Origin: an uncultured Anaerolineae bacterium
GTDB lineage: Bacteria > Chloroflexota > Anaerolineae > JACIWP01
Direction: 5' to 3'
Length of the DNA: 64,000 nucleotides
Assembly (NCBI GenBank): GCA_938049385.1
Contig: CALIBQ010000004.1
Coordinates: 1 to 64,000, forward strand
How positions within the stretch are numbered: the first letter of the stretch is position 1; every line of letters begins with the position of its first letter. This document shows positions 36,407-46,348 of this stretch, piece by piece. The notes under the pieces were generated by a model, which did no database searches, was not told the DNA's origin, and was given only the letters and a program-made list of their open reading frames with translations. The position numbers and the translations under genes are program-made.

Positions 36407-37852
36407 TCAGAACCCAGGGATTTCCTTGACGATCACTCCCCCGTTGGCCTTCACCTCATACGGGAGCAGGTCTTTCTCCGTCAGGAACACGTCCGGGTTG
36501 CCGTGGCAGTTGGTGCACGACTGGTTCTGCGGCGTCACCCGCTGGATGTTGTGCGGCGTGGCGTATTTCCACGTCGGCAAAGCATCATAGTTCCTCAGCA
36601 GGTCCTGTCCGTAGTACTCGTAGTCATCCGGCGCGATGGGCACATGCCGCAGGACGACGTACTTCCACGGTCGCTCCGGACTGCGCAGGGGATTCAGGCC
36701 GATCTTGAAATTCATCTCGGTCTTGGCGATCTTGTAATATGGGATGCCGTCCTGCTGGGCCACGTGGCAAGAATAGCAGTTCTTGTACGTGGTCGCATGA
36801 CAGACCGAGCAGGCCAGCAGTTCCAGATGCTTTTCGGTATGTTGGGTGATGCCGTCGCCCGGCTTCACATCCGAGTGGCACTCCCGGCAGTCCGGCGTGG
36901 GGGGCCCGTCGTAGCGGTGCTTTTTCTCGCCCAATGCACCGTGCATCTGGTCCCGCGAATGACAGCGGAAGCAGGGCATGCCGGCCTTCTGCCAGTGCAC
37001 ATCCGCCGGCACCCCCTCGTTCTCGCCCTTATACTCATCGTTGATGCGGCTTCCGTGACAGCCAGTACAGGTCAGGTTCATAGGAGGTATCTTCTTAAAA
37101 TCATGCCCCTGGAGTAAGCCGCCGTCCAGGTTGGTCGGCATGCTGACGTGGCACTGGCCGCATGAGGTATGGCACTTGTTGCAGTGGTTAGCCATCATCT
37201 GGTCAATCTGCGGATATTTGTCAGGTGTACTGCGCGTGTACAGCGCGGTGCGGTAGCCGGCCAGCGTGCTGTGCAGGCTCGTGGCATCCGTGGTCACAAT
37301 CTCGCGATGACAAGGCGCACAGGCCTTCTGCGAGTCTGGCTCGCGCACTACCCCTTCATGCGCTTCCATAGAAGCCACGCCGGATTTGCCGCCGTGGCAG
37401 GTGATGCACCCGAAGCGGTCATGCAGGCTGGCAGAGAACTGCTCGCTGTTGATGAAAACCTTTTGCCATGCCTCAACCTGAGGCACTTCGCCTCCCCAAC
37501 CCTCGCCTTCCGACAGATTTGGCCCCTTCTCCGATTCCTTCGCCAGCTCCCGGAGCCTGGCTTCATCGGTGTGGCAGGCGCGGCAGTTGGAGTCGTCCGC
37601 CTTGACACCGCCATCACCAGCGGTCGCCGGCGCCGGCAGTGGGAATGACAGCGGCACCGGAGTAGGCCGGGGAGGCGTCGTGGGCGTCGGCTCGACGGTC
37701 GGCGGCGCATACTGGGTCGGGGTCGGGAACACCGGCGCGATCGGCGTCGGGGCCGGCCCACACCCGGCCGCCGCTACCATCACCAGCAGGCCGATAAGCA
37801 TTACGACCGCTGGCCCAACCCATCGGGCATATTTGCGCAGGGAATCACTCAT
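36407..37852 (-). CDS. Undecaheme c-type cytochrome lipoprotein
   Basis: 481 residues. A lipobox ends VAAAGC (Cys31), then a Thr/Pro linker. I count eleven CxxCH motifs (CRACH, CITCH, CAPCH, CNKCH, CGQCH, CTGCH, CFRCH, CRECH, CSVCH, CYSCH, CTNCH). There is no CxxCK, so it is not an NrfA-type nitrite reductase. The ATG at 37852 follows AGGAGAG. It is the last gene of a four-gene electron-transfer operon and would sit outside the membrane, anchored by lipid. Confidence 0.93.
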   Translation of the reverse strand: MSDSLRKYARWVGPAVVMLIGLLVMVAAAGCGPAPTPIAPVFPTPTQYAPPTVEPTPTTPPRPTPVPLSFPLPAPATAGDGGVKADDSNCRACHTDEARLRELAKESEKGPNLSEGEGWGGEVPQVEAWQKVFINSEQFSASLHDRFGCITCHGGKSGVASMEAHEGVVREPDSQKACAPCHREIVTTDATSLHSTLAGYRTALYTRSTPDKYPQIDQMMANHCNKCHTSCGQCHVSMPTNLDGGLLQGHDFKKIPPMNLTCTGCHGSRINDEYKGENEGVPADVHWQKAGMPCFRCHSRDQMHGALGEKKHRYDGPPTPDCRECHSDVKPGDGITQHTEKHLELLACSVCHATTYKNCYSCHVAQQDGIPYYKIAKTEMNFKIGLNPLRSPERPWKYVVLRHVPIAPDDYEYYGQDLLRNYDALPTWKYATPHNIQRVTPQNQSCTNCHGNPDVFLTEKDLLPYEVKANGGVIVKEIPGF

Positions 37853-37927
37853 GGCATCTCTCCTGCAAAGAGATGGGCAGGAACGTCCCGATGTGGCGAT
37901 GAGCGCGCTCACCGGGACACGACAGCT

Positions 37928-39061
37928 TCATCCGCCGGCCGGCTTGGTGCCGCTCTCCCAGGCCTGGTCCGCCTGGTGGCACTGGACACAGTCGCCGGCG
38001 TAGGCATCCTTGTTATGCGAAGCGGGCTTCGCATGACAGGAATCGCAGTTAGATGCAATCTTGACCCGCAGACCCTCGATATGACAGCCGACGCAGTCCA
38101 CCTGGGTATGCTTGCCTTTGTACTGGTCCCAGACCTGGACGTGTTCCGGCCAACTGCCGCCGGCAAAGCTCCATGTGCTCGCAGGGTCATGACAAGAGGC
38201 GCAGTCGTCGCCGCCAAATTCATGCGCCCGCTGGTGGCAGGCGGCGCATTTCGTGGACAGCCCGCTGAAGTTCGGGAAGCGATGACAGGAGAAGCAGGGC
38301 ACCTCAGCATGCTTCCCGACCAGCGGCATCGGGTGCACCGCTACCTTCACCTGTGACCACTCGCGCGTGGACGTATGGCACAGGTCGCAGTTCAGGTTCT
38401 CCACGTCATGCGGATCAACGTGGCAGGCACTGCATTCCGACAGCTTCACATCCAGGTTGCGCTGTTCATGGCAGTCCAAACAGACGCTCATGTTGCAGAC
38501 CACATTGCCGGAGACCGGATCGAAACCGTGACCTACCTGCCCGTGGCAGTCACTGCAGTAGACGTCCAGCGCCTCGCCATGCTCGATTTTGTCCACAACG
38601 ATGCGGTGCGGGGTGCGGAGCCGGTCGCCGGGGATTTCCGCCGGCAGGTTGTAGTGACAGACGACGCAGTCCGCCGGCCGCTCCGCTGTGATGTCGGCGA
38701 TAAGTCCTTTGTGCGAGGCATCCTTATCCGAGACGGTGCCATCGCCGGCATGACAGGTCACACAGCCCAGCTTGCCGTGCGGCTTGAAGATGGATTCTAC
38801 CTCGACGAGAAACTCTTCCACCTTAGTCGGATCTGCCGCGCTGGCCTTCAGCGCTTCCAGGGAAAAATGGCATTCCCGACAGGTCTGGGATTTCGCCGGC
38901 AGGGCATAGGCGATGGCGTGCAGAGTCGGGGTGGGCGTAGGCGCTTTGCCGGCCAGAGCCAGGCCCACGGGCTGGAGCAGGAGTCCCAGGCCAATGGCGA
39001 CGCCAGCCAGCGCCAGCGCGATGACGATCAGTACCCAACGCGGCAAATTTTGTGGAAGCAT
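37928..39061 (-). CDS. 13-heme c-type cytochrome, N-terminally membrane-anchored
   Basis: 377 residues with one N-terminal helix (WVLIVIALALAGVAIGLGLLL) and a Pro/Thr linker, then thirteen CxxCH motifs, from CRECH near residue 60 to CVQCH near the end. The density, one heme per 25 residues, suits an electron wire. The ATG at 39061 is preferred to the GTG at 39067 because AGGGAGG is six bases before it. It is 12 bp from the NrfD gene and 75 bp upstream of the 11-heme gene. Confidence 0.93.
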   Translation of the reverse strand: MLPQNLPRWVLIVIALALAGVAIGLGLLLQPVGLALAGKAPTPTPTLHAIAYALPAKSQTCRECHFSLEALKASAADPTKVEEFLVEVESIFKPHGKLGCVTCHAGDGTVSDKDASHKGLIADITAERPADCVVCHYNLPAEIPGDRLRTPHRIVVDKIEHGEALDVYCSDCHGQVGHGFDPVSGNVVCNMSVCLDCHEQRNLDVKLSECSACHVDPHDVENLNCDLCHTSTREWSQVKVAVHPMPLVGKHAEVPCFSCHRFPNFSGLSTKCAACHQRAHEFGGDDCASCHDPASTWSFAGGSWPEHVQVWDQYKGKHTQVDCVGCHIEGLRVKIASNCDSCHAKPASHNKDAYAGDCVQCHQADQAWESGTKPAGG

Positions 39062-39073
39062 GCTCACCCTCCC

Positions 39074-40009
39074 TTACAGCGCCACGGGAATGCCGGCGAA
39101 CACGATGAGGTAACGCAGGAACAAGCCGGCGATGACAATGCCCGCGCCCGACAAGATGCCCGAGACAAGACCGTGCCGGCGGGCGCCGATGGCGTAGGCA
39201 TGGATGACAAACGGGTAAAACAGCCCGGGCACTACCACAAAAGCCCAGAAAATGATGGCACCAGGCCCCATGAAGATCAAGCGTGCTGATTCTGCCGCCG
39301 CGCCTCCCCTCAGCCAGGCCACCGCCAGCACCAAGCCGATAAGCACCGCCTCGAGGCCAATCAGCACGATGTGGATGACGGGAAGCGCATGGAAGCGCCG
39401 AGCGATATCGGGTACAGCAATGGTAGCCCCCAGGTCAATGGTCAGGCCCATGCCAGTAGAGCCGGCGGACACCAGAAACAACAGCGGCAGTAGCGGCGTA
39501 TGCCAGAGGGGCACCGCCCGCACCACCGAGAGCAGGATGCCAGTGTAGATGGCCACGCCGACGGCAAGTACCGAGCCCACGCTCGCCAGCACCCGCCGGA
39601 TGGAGCGGTACGGAAGCGCGGCCGGCAGAAACTTCAGGAAACGCCGCAACCAGGCCAGGATGCCGGGGTAATTGTCCATGAGTTCCATGAGGCCGTACAG
39701 CAGGCTTACCGGGATAAAGAGCGTCAACAACCAGATACCCCAGGTCATTACAGAGGTGAAGTGGGTGAACATGTAGATAATGCGCCAGGGCTCCATTTTG
39801 CCGGCGCCCAGGTCAAAAATGAGCAGAAGGGAGCCGATGATGACCAATGGGCCGCTGACGCCGGCGCCGATGAGCGTCGTCGGGCAAAAGGCGTGCTTAT
39901 ACCGCTCGCCGGTCAGCTCCACCACTGCCGCAGTGAGCAGTGAGCCAGCGCCCATCCCGCCGAGGAACAGATAGATGGCGACCAGCCATCCCCAATGCTC
40001 TTGTCCCAT
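39074..40009 (-). CDS. NrfD/PsrC-family quinone-interacting membrane subunit
   Basis: 311 residues with eight to nine hydrophobic helices and the family start GWLVAIYLFLGGMGAGSLL. NrfD-like proteins exchange electrons with menaquinone and partner with a four-cluster ferredoxin-like subunit, as encoded immediately upstream (17 bp). In this operon it most likely links the quinone pool to the two multiheme cytochromes. Direction of electron flow cannot be read from sequence. Confidence 0.92.
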   Translation of the reverse strand: MGQEHWGWLVAIYLFLGGMGAGSLLTAAVVELTGERYKHAFCPTTLIGAGVSGPLVIIGSLLLIFDLGAGKMEPWRIIYMFTHFTSVMTWGIWLLTLFIPVSLLYGLMELMDNYPGILAWLRRFLKFLPAALPYRSIRRVLASVGSVLAVGVAIYTGILLSVVRAVPLWHTPLLPLLFLVSAGSTGMGLTIDLGATIAVPDIARRFHALPVIHIVLIGLEAVLIGLVLAVAWLRGGAAAESARLIFMGPGAIIFWAFVVVPGLFYPFVIHAYAIGARRHGLVSGILSGAGIVIAGLFLRYLIVFAGIPVAL

Positions 40010-40026
40010 GCTTGCTCCTCCTGGCC

Positions 40027-40701
40027 TTATTCATCGGGGAAGATGTAGAACAGGATGCCAGGCTCCGTGCTGAATTCTGGATGCAGGGGCTTGGCTCGCC
40101 CAGAAGCGATGAGCTTGCTCACTTCACTGTCCGGGTCATCCAGCCGGCCGAAAAGGCGAGCGCCCGGCGCACAGGCCTGCACACAGGCCGGCTCTCCTCC
40201 CCCCAGCACCCAGTCCAGGCACAACCAGCACTTTTCCGCGATGCCCTTTTCCTCATCGTAGCGCCGCGCATCATACGGGCAGGCTAACATGCAGTAACGG
40301 CATCCGACGCAGGTCTTATGATTGACCAACACCGTCCCGCTCTCATGATGGTAGGTTGCACCGGTGGGACAGACGGTGGCGCAGGGCGGTTTCACACAGT
40401 GCTGACACTGTACCGGCAGGAAGTAAGGGCTTCCGTCAAGCTTTTGCTTGCGGTAAACACGGATGTACGACATGTCCCCCGGCAGTTCGTTGCGCTGATG
40501 ACAAGCCAGCTCACAGGCGCGACAGCCAGTACATTTGTTTAGGTCAATGATGAGAGCATACTTGCCGCGTGTCTCGGCCAGCGCCTGCTCCAGAGTGAGC
40601 AGTTTACCGCCGGCAGCGATAAGGATAGTGCCGGCCATGCCGGTCTTGAGGAACTGCTTGCGGGACAGGCTTTGCTTGGGTCTTTCGTTCGTATCGTTCA
40701 T
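40027..40701 (-). CDS. NrfC/PsrB-like ferredoxin subunit with four [4Fe-4S] sites and Tat-like signal
   Basis: 224 residues. Four cysteine clusters are visible: CTGCRACELAC, CQHCVKPPCATVC, CVGCRYCMLAC and CWLCLDW...CVQAC. The N-terminus reads SRKQFLKTGMAG, a twin-arginine motif with Arg-Lys in place of Arg-Arg, followed by a short hydrophobic run, so export by Tat is likely but not certain. The ATG at 40701 is favoured over a start five codons upstream because GGAG lies before it. Confidence 0.92.
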   Translation of the reverse strand: MNDTNERPKQSLSRKQFLKTGMAGTILIAAGGKLLTLEQALAETRGKYALIIDLNKCTGCRACELACHQRNELPGDMSYIRVYRKQKLDGSPYFLPVQCQHCVKPPCATVCPTGATYHHESGTVLVNHKTCVGCRYCMLACPYDARRYDEEKGIAEKCWLCLDWVLGGGEPACVQACAPGARLFGRLDDPDSEVSKLIASGRAKPLHPEFSTEPGILFYIFPDE

Positions 40702-41063: not shown

Positions 41064-42569
41064 ATGGGAACGCTGGCAGTAACCCCTCTGGACCTGCTGG
41101 TGCTGGGGCTTCTCCAGGAACGCCCTATGCACGGCTACGAACTGTACCAACGCATTAAGACCGAGCGGATTGACCGCTGGTTCAATATCAGCATGCCCGG
41201 CGTGTACTATGCCCTCGGGAAACTGCGCGACCGGGGATATGTCTCCGAAATCCGACAGCGGCGCGGTTCAGTGGACAAGGCGATATATCTGCTGACCGAC
41301 GCCGGCCAACAGGCGTTCTTCGAGGCGCTCGAGGCCCATGTCGCCGGCCATATCCCCATCCATTTTGATTACGACCTGAGCATATATCTCCTCAACCGCC
41401 TGCCCATCGATCGCGCCCTGGCATTGATGGAACAGCGCATGGAGGCCCTGCGCCAGTGGCAGATGCAGGTGCGCGAATCCATGGAACAGGAGCAGGACCT
41501 GAACCCGCGCCTGCGCGCCATCTTTGACCACACCCTGCGCTTCACCACCATGGAGCGCATGTGGATGGGAGAACTCATCGAATCCATCCAGGGGAACGCC
41601 GGCGCTCTCGAAGAACCGGGCAAACGAAGGTTGATGGTCATGAGCGGCGACCTGCGGCAGTACCACCTTCCCGACCTTCTGCGCCTGATCGCTTCCGGTA
41701 AGCACTCCGGCACGCTCACCATCACCGACGGCGTGCTGGGCAGGGCCATCAACTTCGTGCGCGGCCAGCCCAACTGCATCGCCGGCTATCGGCTGGACCA
41801 GGAGGAATCAGTACCGCGTTCTGAGGAAGATTCCTTCCGCGCCATATACGACCTCTTCCGCTGGCAGGCCGGCGAGTTCATCTTTGACCAGTCCCAGCCC
41901 CGGCATCAGTGGTGCGTCCCCGTCCACCTCATCACCTCTCAGCTCATCCTGGAAGGCTGCCGCTGGGTGGATAACTGGGAGACCATCCGCCGGCTCGTGT
42001 CGTCATCGGAAGCTGTCTTCGAAGTCAGCATGGGAGCGGAAGAGCTGGAAAAGCTTGGGGTAACGGAGGCAGAGAAGGCGTTCCTCAACGAGGTGAACGG
42101 CGGTCGCGATATCACAGACATCGCCGGCCGGCTCCAGCTCACGCTCTTTGAAGCCTCGCGCATCGCCTATACCCTGCTGGCCGTCGGCGCCATCCGCTAT
42201 GGAGACCTGGAGCGGATTCGCCTACGCAGGACTTTCCGCGAGATCGCAGAGCTGAACTGTCGCGGCACGCTGGTACTGCGCAAGCACCCTTCTGACACCA
42301 GTTGCGAACAGGCGGTCAACCGCGCTTGTGCCGACATCCCCATCCGCATCGAGAACGGCCATATTGTGGACCAAACGCCGCCCGATATGGAAATGGACCT
42401 GCTTGTCAATATATACCGGACTTTCCTGATCCGCCAAATCGAGGTCATCCGGCAGTACTTTGGGCTGGATGCGGCTCGTGAACTCGCCGCGCGCACACTG
42501 CGCCAGCTTGTGCCCGAACTGCAGGCAGTGGCGGAGCGCTACGGCTTTGTCCGCATACTGCACCCCTGA
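41064..42569 (+). CDS. PadR-type regulator fused to a DUF4388 (PATAN-like) domain
   Basis: 501 residues. Residues 1-185 are a PadR winged helix and dimerisation region (LLVLGLLQERPMHGYELYQRI, PGVYYALGKLRDRGYVSE). From about 190 it has the DUF4388 pattern (MSGDLRQYHLPDLLRLIASGKHSGTLTI...) seen in response-regulator-associated and gliding-motility proteins, then a further helical part that may contain a second winged helix. PadR proteins usually end near residue 180-200, so this is a long fusion. AAGGAG precedes the ATG. The divergent multiheme operon is a plausible target. Confidence 0.85.
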   Translation: MGTLAVTPLDLLVLGLLQERPMHGYELYQRIKTERIDRWFNISMPGVYYALGKLRDRGYVSEIRQRRGSVDKAIYLLTDAGQQAFFEALEAHVAGHIPIHFDYDLSIYLLNRLPIDRALALMEQRMEALRQWQMQVRESMEQEQDLNPRLRAIFDHTLRFTTMERMWMGELIESIQGNAGALEEPGKRRLMVMSGDLRQYHLPDLLRLIASGKHSGTLTITDGVLGRAINFVRGQPNCIAGYRLDQEESVPRSEEDSFRAIYDLFRWQAGEFIFDQSQPRHQWCVPVHLITSQLILEGCRWVDNWETIRRLVSSSEAVFEVSMGAEELEKLGVTEAEKAFLNEVNGGRDITDIAGRLQLTLFEASRIAYTLLAVGAIRYGDLERIRLRRTFREIAELNCRGTLVLRKHPSDTSCEQAVNRACADIPIRIENGHIVDQTPPDMEMDLLVNIYRTFLIRQIEVIRQYFGLDAARELAARTLRQLVPELQAVAERYGFVRILHP

Positions 42570-45113: not shown

Positions 45114-46292
45114 TCAGCGCAGGCCGGCGGCGCGATGCCCCTGCGCGATCTGCTCCGCCATACGGTCCAGCGCCTCCAGGTCCTCCTTGCGCGGCAGGCC
45201 GCGCACATACACGGGCTCGATGAACTGCGCCGAGAGGTTGGTCACCAGCGATTGAATCGTGTTGACCGCTTTGGTCCCCCACAGATAGGAGCCAAAGATG
45301 GAGAAATATTTGGCTTTCGGCCGCAGTGCATTGATCAGCACCGCGCCGAAGACCCCGTAGGGATGCGGGCTGGTCTCCACGGTGGGCACACCCAGGATGA
45401 TACTGCCGGCATCCACCATGGCGATGGCCAGCTTGCCGATATCCATGCTCGCTAGATCGAAGAGCTGGGCATTGACCCCTTTGGCGACCAGGCTGTCCGC
45501 CAGCCTGTGCGCCATGATCTCGGTGCTCCCGTGCATGGTAACATAGGGGATGAGCGCGATGTTCTTCGGCTCGCCCAGCACCCATTCGCGGTAGGCATCC
45601 AGGATGAACGCCGGCCGGTTGTACGCCGGCCCATGGCTGGGCGCGATGACCGAGATGTCATAGCCGGCCAGGCGCTCCAGATGCTTGCGGATATGGCGCG
45701 CGAAGGGCATCATGATCTCGGCGTAATAGCGCTTGGCCGCCTCATATGCCTGCCACTCATCCGGCACATACAGCGAGGAGGTAGCCAGGTGGGAGCCGAA
45801 AAAGTCGCAGGAGAAGAGGATTTTTTCCTCCCGCAGGTAGGTCGCCATGGTCTCCGGCCAGTGCACCCAAGGCATATGCAGGAACTCCAGCGTTACATCT
45901 CCCAAAGAGAGGGTTTCGCCATCTTCCACTGTCTGTATGGCACCCTCCGGGAGATGGAGCAGGTTGACCAGCATCGGCTTGGCCTTGGGAGTCGCGAGGA
46001 TGCGCGCCCCCGGATAGCGCTCCAACAGCTTGGGCAGAGTGCCGGAATGGTCCTGCTCCGCATGGTTGGAGATGATATAATCCACCGCCGGCATGCCGGC
46101 CAGCGCTTCCAGGAATCCCTGCTCCAGCGCAGGCTCCACCGCATCAATGAGCACCCGCTTCTCCGAACCCTTGATGTAGTAGGCGTTGTAGCTAGTGCCG
46201 TCCGGTAACGGGATCAGCGCGTCGAACAAGCGGCGGTTCCAGTGCACCGCCGGCAACTGCCACACCCGCTCTGTCATCTTATGAACAAACAT
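45114..46292 (-). CDS. Flavodiiron protein (FprA-like oxygen/NO reductase)
   Basis: 392 residues. The metallo-beta-lactamase part holds the diiron motif His77-x-Glu79-x-Asp81-His82 (NHAEQDHSG), a DFFGSH segment and SHGPAYNRP. The C-terminal flavodoxin domain (residues about 245-392) begins IPYVTMHGST and includes FGSYLWGTKAVN. It reduces O2 to water or NO to N2O in anaerobes, which fits an anaerobic lifestyle. AAGGAGG precedes the ATG at 46292. Confidence 0.94.
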   Translation of the reverse strand: MFVHKMTERVWQLPAVHWNRRLFDALIPLPDGTSYNAYYIKGSEKRVLIDAVEPALEQGFLEALAGMPAVDYIISNHAEQDHSGTLPKLLERYPGARILATPKAKPMLVNLLHLPEGAIQTVEDGETLSLGDVTLEFLHMPWVHWPETMATYLREEKILFSCDFFGSHLATSSLYVPDEWQAYEAAKRYYAEIMMPFARHIRKHLERLAGYDISVIAPSHGPAYNRPAFILDAYREWVLGEPKNIALIPYVTMHGSTEIMAHRLADSLVAKGVNAQLFDLASMDIGKLAIAMVDAGSIILGVPTVETSPHPYGVFGAVLINALRPKAKYFSIFGSYLWGTKAVNTIQSLVTNLSAQFIEPVYVRGLPRKEDLEALDRMAEQIAQGHRAAGLR

Positions 46293-46348
46293 AGGCGTAT
46301 CCTCCTTGTGATCGTCGCTCGCGCCTGCCCTCACTGGGCATCCATCTC

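Follow-up and report, generated by a model that had tools for sequence, protein, structure and literature searches.

Closest described systems

In Wolinella, PsrABC and the periplasmic rhodanese Sud bring together an NrfD anchor, an FeS subunit and a secreted rhodanese supplying sulfane sulfur; the catalytic subunit is a molybdoenzyme there, and a multiheme cytochrome would take its place in the locus described here. In Hmc/Nhc, Qrc, Nrf, DsrMKJOP and MccACD, as in this locus, a subunit of NrfD type goes together with FeS subunits, cytochromes or both (PMC8076601), but their descriptions contain neither a rhodanese nor selenocysteine (Sec), unlike the cytochrome family, called D, that is presented below.

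A 2026 review counted 119 prokaryotic selenoprotein families, with two cytochrome entries only: ExtKL and one octaheme annotation (PMC13188914). ExtKL of Geobacter is a proposed 5-heme Sec cytochrome encoded near the rhodanese ExtH; loss of extI lowers selenite and tellurite reduction, and ExtKL was proposed by the same authors for selenite reduction (PMC5877670). Like the D family, this system has a multiheme cytochrome with a predicted Sec, and its gene lies close to those of a rhodanese and of a quinone-linked module. It differs in its heme number (5, against 11-13 here), in having a b-type/Rieske module where an FeS-NrfD module is found here, and in its outer-membrane porin ExtI. A rhodanese in the same cluster is present with D relatives and absent from the window. 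Seven D proteins searched with the ExtKL model NF040886 gave no match at E up to 10, and filing D under ExtKL was rejected on these too low model scores; by analogy, the D system appears ExtKL/ExtH-like in outline, a likeness that falls short of showing membership.

The second entry concerns the tetrathionate reductase family octaheme cytochrome (TIGR04315), a multiheme family with one GenBank-annotated Sec member (PMC13188914). It has 8 hemes against 11 in D, and D gave no match to TIGR04315 at E up to 10. Profile searches of solved structures with D returned only weak, heme-motif-driven matches (1sp3, E 1.8e-5; 4qo5), and the part of D aligned with 1sp3 falls outside the Sec loop.

Gene content of the window and comparison with named complexes

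The window is the whole stretch of DNA that was analysed, 64,000 nucleotides from an uncultured Anaerolineae bacterium. All four genes of the original prediction, encoding an FeS protein (A), an NrfD protein (B), a 13-heme cytochrome (C) and an 11-heme cytochrome (D), were found in one tight operon with short intergenic gaps (Table 1), and its 24 predicted hemes correspond to exactly 13 CXXCH motifs in C and exactly 11 in D. The ATG at 37852 is the more likely start of D, rather than the GTG at 37912, on account of an AGGAGA ribosome site and a lipoprotein signal (AAAG|C). The operon holds no molybdopterin, hydrogenase or NrfA gene, as had also been stated, and nothing reached the cut-off in a profile search of the window's genome for the NrfA family (PF02335). 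C (37928-39067) and D (36407-37912) share about 25% identity across their common heme domains, which suggests an old duplication, with C devoid of the Sec loop. A putative flavodiiron-type protein gene, identified from sequence alone, lies near the operon (window 45114-46334).

Table 1. Features of the operon and its surroundings (positions in the window)
Feature	Position	Strand	Basis or remark
A: Tat-type exported 4Fe-4S dicluster protein	40027..40701	-	Pfam 4Fe-4S dicluster; 40716 if upstream ATG used
B: NrfD-type integral membrane quinone-interacting subunit	39074..40009	-	Pfam NrfD, 130 bits
C: 13-heme c-type cytochrome, N-terminal hydrophobic anchor	37928..39067	-	Pfam cytochrome c7/c3; alternative ATG at 39061
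D: 11-heme cytochrome lipoprotein, Sec-less	36407..37852	-	Pfam cytochrome c7/c3; alternative GTG start 37912
Deletion junction; G400 (L059) has a two-domain rhodanese gene here, in about 1.23 kb of DNA	37889..37896	-	Flank alignment
TGG (Trp139, numbered from the GTG start) at the family's TGA (Sec) column	37496..37498	-	Alignment of relatives
Relic SECIS hairpin gtgcctc-AGGTT-gaggcat, same as in TGA-bearing sister species	37468..37486	-	Sequence comparison
PadR regulator fused to DUF4388, divergent from the operon	41064..42569	+	Kept beside A-B-C in four other lineages: L081, L084, L086 (partial) and L087

The description of the set as a quinone-linked multiheme module without an exact Hmc, Qrc or Nrf counterpart agrees with the NCBIfam models of named complexes, the matched subunit models all scoring under their curated cut-offs and DsrO alone coming near. 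DsrO is the nearest model for A (172 bits for a cut-off of 200), and DsrMKJOP was rejected on this score and on the lack of dsrM, K and J neighbours in the operon. The Nrf complex (NrfC 152/378 bits, NrfD 86/348 bits, PF02335 under cut-off in the genome), the Hmc complex (HmcA 27.5/400 bits, HmcB 105/420 bits) and Qrc (QrcC 101/400 bits, molybdopterin-fold subunit gene missing from the operon) were rejected in the same manner, and no Tmc model was among the NCBIfam matches of the general search. A search for the same gene order in other Chloroflexota, proposed along with the original prediction, showed A-B-C to be conserved there.

The D family and its in-frame TGA

Scanning species-representative genomes gave 465 D relatives, mostly from Chloroflexota with some from Acidimicrobiia. 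The column discussed below was read in the best 80 of these 465, of which 79 were readable and one was truncated: TGA occupies it in 78 of the 79 readable copies and TTG in the other (L081), while Cys was found in none of them. In a separate draw of 400 Chloroflexota genomes searched with D, one TGA lies inside the aligned frame of 12 out of 13 non-self matches. Its position is constant, in a loop that reads G-x-G-[TGA]-GG-x-x-(P/A)-P-L-E and in which the window has TGG (Trp139), and the coding sequence of D homologues is conserved on both sides of the UGA. Two species of the same genus as the window's, with D proteins 89-91% identical to the window's, hold TGA at this column, followed on the 3' side by DNA near-identical to the window's. 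No report of the D family, or of a Chloroflexota multiheme cytochrome with selenocysteine, was found in the literature (open-access papers); the family is apparently undescribed.

Hairpins following the TGA were evaluated with the bSECIS criteria: a loop of 3-9, a stem of at least 4, a G within the first two loop bases, 16-37 nt and a free energy of -7.5 kcal/mol or lower (PMC13188914). Hairpins of this kind were found at 87 of 92 TGA sites, compared with 6.6% of control codons taken from those genes (2,822 of 43,026). In 92% of cells the stem is paired, a share that falls to 35-57% when the hairpin is slid, and one pair shows a compensatory change from C-G to G-C in 28 of 81 sequences. The codons CCT, CCG, TTG, GAG and GCA are biased exactly over the hairpin, where some are locked relative to their use elsewhere (CCT 98% vs 12%, TTG 99% vs 15%, GAG 100% vs 48%).

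SelB was present in all TGA-bearing genomes of the first draw and tRNA-Sec in nearly all TGA-bearing genomes, with confirmation by ARAGORN where checked. Gaps were seen in a few incomplete MAGs: SelB was not found in G402 (the genome of L081), the search in G405 gave an EF-Tu-like match only, and tRNA-Sec stayed under the cut-off in G401 and G121. Given the conserved in-frame TGA, the SECIS hairpin and the SelB/tRNA-Sec pair, D is a predicted multiheme selenoprotein and we are highly confident that the family should be read as a selenoprotein family.

The window has Trp at this column, one base away from TGA, which would suit a reading of the TGA as Trp, as a plain stop or as the mark of a pseudogene. 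This reading is extremely improbable: dozens of genomes share this TGA, flanked by conserved sequence on either side, several D relatives use TGA as the true stop at the end of the gene, and the hairpin carries compensatory changes in genomes with SelB and tRNA-Sec. Both the Trp and the pseudogene version were rejected on SECIS, codon bias and Sec machinery.

The window's genome also has both SelB and tRNA-Sec. A frame that resembles formate dehydrogenase alpha and contains a single in-frame TGA was noted in it (G000:C23:4110-4868, L189) and is predicted to be a second selenoprotein gene. As these three elements are retained, the Sec machinery is probably still used in this genome, and its loss was rejected as the cause of the TGG.

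Association of D with secreted rhodaneses

In the sister species G400 (L059), the operon has the order A-B-C-rhodanese-D, with TGA in D. The rhodanese gene (L059:3103-4185) encodes two domains with a loop Cys each, a signal peptide and an LPTTG-type C-terminus. In other clades the rhodanese, with up to four domains, is fused to D or located 5' or 3' of it. The linkage was counted on the 61 TGA loci flanked by 1.2 kb or more on either side: a secreted rhodanese gene adjoins D in 60 of them, compared with 0 of 61 segments taken 3.5-6 kb away. The one exception is a divergent D, the second copy of G011 (L046:6127-7464), which keeps the TGA with no adjoining rhodanese and has a Cys three residues ahead of Sec (CxxU), a possible internal partner for it.

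Joint loss of Sec and rhodanese

Judged against the sister species, in which a rhodanese gene separates C from D and the TGG of D is TGA, the gene set of the window is a deletion derivative of a fuller operon. Relative to G400, the window lacks about 1.23 kb between C and D, and the flanks align at 78-83% on each side. A genome-wide search found no homologue of this rhodanese in the window's genome (completeness 98%). An assembly artefact behind the absent rhodanese was rejected, the flanks being as diverged as the rest of the locus and the genome having no homologue. L081, the sole other non-TGA copy among the 79, has A-B-C-D without an adjacent rhodanese, and its hairpin is broken.

In the tree, the TGA-bearing sisters are grouped together, the window and L081 lying outside this group, so that two losses of Sec require the fewest changes. 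The association between non-TGA codons and rhodanese absence gives a Fisher p = 0.0015, phylogeny not being accounted for. The joint loss in the window hints that Sec and the rhodanese work as one unit; this coupling rests on few events, as only two Sec losses are seen.

In the window's own D, the UGA Sec codon is replaced by TGG and the SECIS is intact, so either Sec was lost recently or the TGG, which could be a sequencing error, is one. The deletion of the rhodanese speaks for a real change from TGA to TGG. The N/S value of D is 0.32 on the window branch, compared with 0.24 and 0.32 in the sisters: on these values D is still under purifying selection despite being Sec-less, so part of its job would have no need for Sec. 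The window and its sister species form a natural experiment, in which Sec and its partner were lost within one genus and the remaining operon is still selected.

Proposed function of the complete locus

D with its rhodanese is found beside an FeS-NrfD pair (L115, L101) or an FeS-cytochrome b561 pair (L127) in other clades, as is usual for quinone-linked enzymes whose one further subunit does the catalysis. With these anchors, the predicted Sec and the rhodanese, D of the relatives would occupy the place of a catalytic subunit. The FeS-NrfD/b561 pairing, the Sec loop and a sulfur carrier together point to chalcogen redox chemistry at D. We put at about even the chances that the complete locus encodes a chalcogen (sulfane-sulfur) oxidoreductase that is linked to menaquinone, coupled to the rhodanese and has its catalytic subunit in D, the copy of the window being a Sec-less derivative. 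This estimate covers the whole chain; gene order, TGA, SECIS, Sec machinery, rhodanese linkage and co-loss are read from the DNA, and Sec incorporation, sulfur chemistry and direction are what we infer.

The complete form, as in G400, would comprise the FeS protein, NrfD, the 13-heme cytochrome, the secreted two-domain rhodanese and a Sec-containing 11-heme lipoprotein, in a membrane-bound complex acting outside the cytoplasmic membrane and linked to menaquinone. On the loop Cys of the rhodanese, a persulfide would carry the sulfane sulfur (or selenium). That atom would be exchanged by the selenolate of D, which lies between hemes 1 and 2 in a flexible loop rich in Gly, and electrons would pass between the quinone pool and the hemes of D and C through A and B. 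The AlphaFold model of D has a pLDDT of 74 (moderate) with values below 50 in the Sec loop, a flexible part of the model; a fold search of the PDB with this model gave no meaningful match, unsurprisingly for a multiheme model built heme-free.

Electron direction and the identity of the chalcogen (S or Se) were guessed by analogy. Reduction of sulfane sulfur or polysulfide, in the manner of Sud/Psr, would be slightly preferred to oxidation. The same parts suit both directions, and rhodaneses both give and accept sulfane sulfur, so the complex might also run oxidatively, D oxidising sulfide or other reduced sulfur at Sec, with sulfane sulfur delivered to the rhodanese and electrons to menaquinone via C, A and B. 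We hold this to be rather unlikely, the nearest precedent, ExtKL/ExtH, being tied to reduction (PMC5877670).

That precedent, in which extKL adjoins extH (PMC5877670), and the weak matches of some D relatives to ExtM/ExtS models would also suit a Chloroflexota counterpart of Geobacter Ext, in which the Sec cytochrome and the rhodanese process selenium and not sulfur, for selenite/tellurite reduction or selenium handling. Such a role is unlikely: the ExtKL model finds no match in D, the ExtM scores are far under the cut-off, and a dedicated 24-heme quinone module seems beyond what the handling of trace selenium would call for.

The original prediction had read the locus as a module for electron traffic between menaquinone and an external partner, possibly in extracellular electron transfer or syntrophy; on this reading it is a conduit to an extracellular partner with no catalysis of its own. 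The 24 hemes and quinone module lacking a molybdo or NrfA subunit, and the purifying selection on D after the loss of Sec, agree with it, but a passive wire would not be expected to have a conserved Sec or a rhodanese of its own. We consider the conduit reading quite improbable, and it is weakened for the family by the presence of both in the relatives; the copy of the window, deprived of both, could be a simple electron conduit or use another partner.

Returning to the catalytic reading, we propose tentatively, and with less assurance than for the single locus, that undecaheme selenocytochromes of an undescribed family, spread widely through Chloroflexota and Acidimicrobiia, supply the catalytic subunit of a respiratory chalcogen oxidoreductase that is linked to quinone and fed by a rhodanese. 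A selenolate close to a heme would do the chemistry there, Sec and rhodanese would be kept or lost as a unit, and the whole would have been hidden by gene calling at UGA. Ordinary gene calling splits D genes at this codon, so that a respiratory system common among uncultured Chloroflexota may have escaped notice. D would be the third family of Sec cytochromes, with more hemes and a near-strict rhodanese partner, and it opens a testable question, the role of Sec in a multiheme cytochrome. All the evidence is sequence inference, drawn mostly from MAGs. One contig with a D-rhodanese locus (L115) is labelled Candidatus Thorarchaeota; its locus groups with Chloroflexota in the tree, and the contig is probably misbinned.
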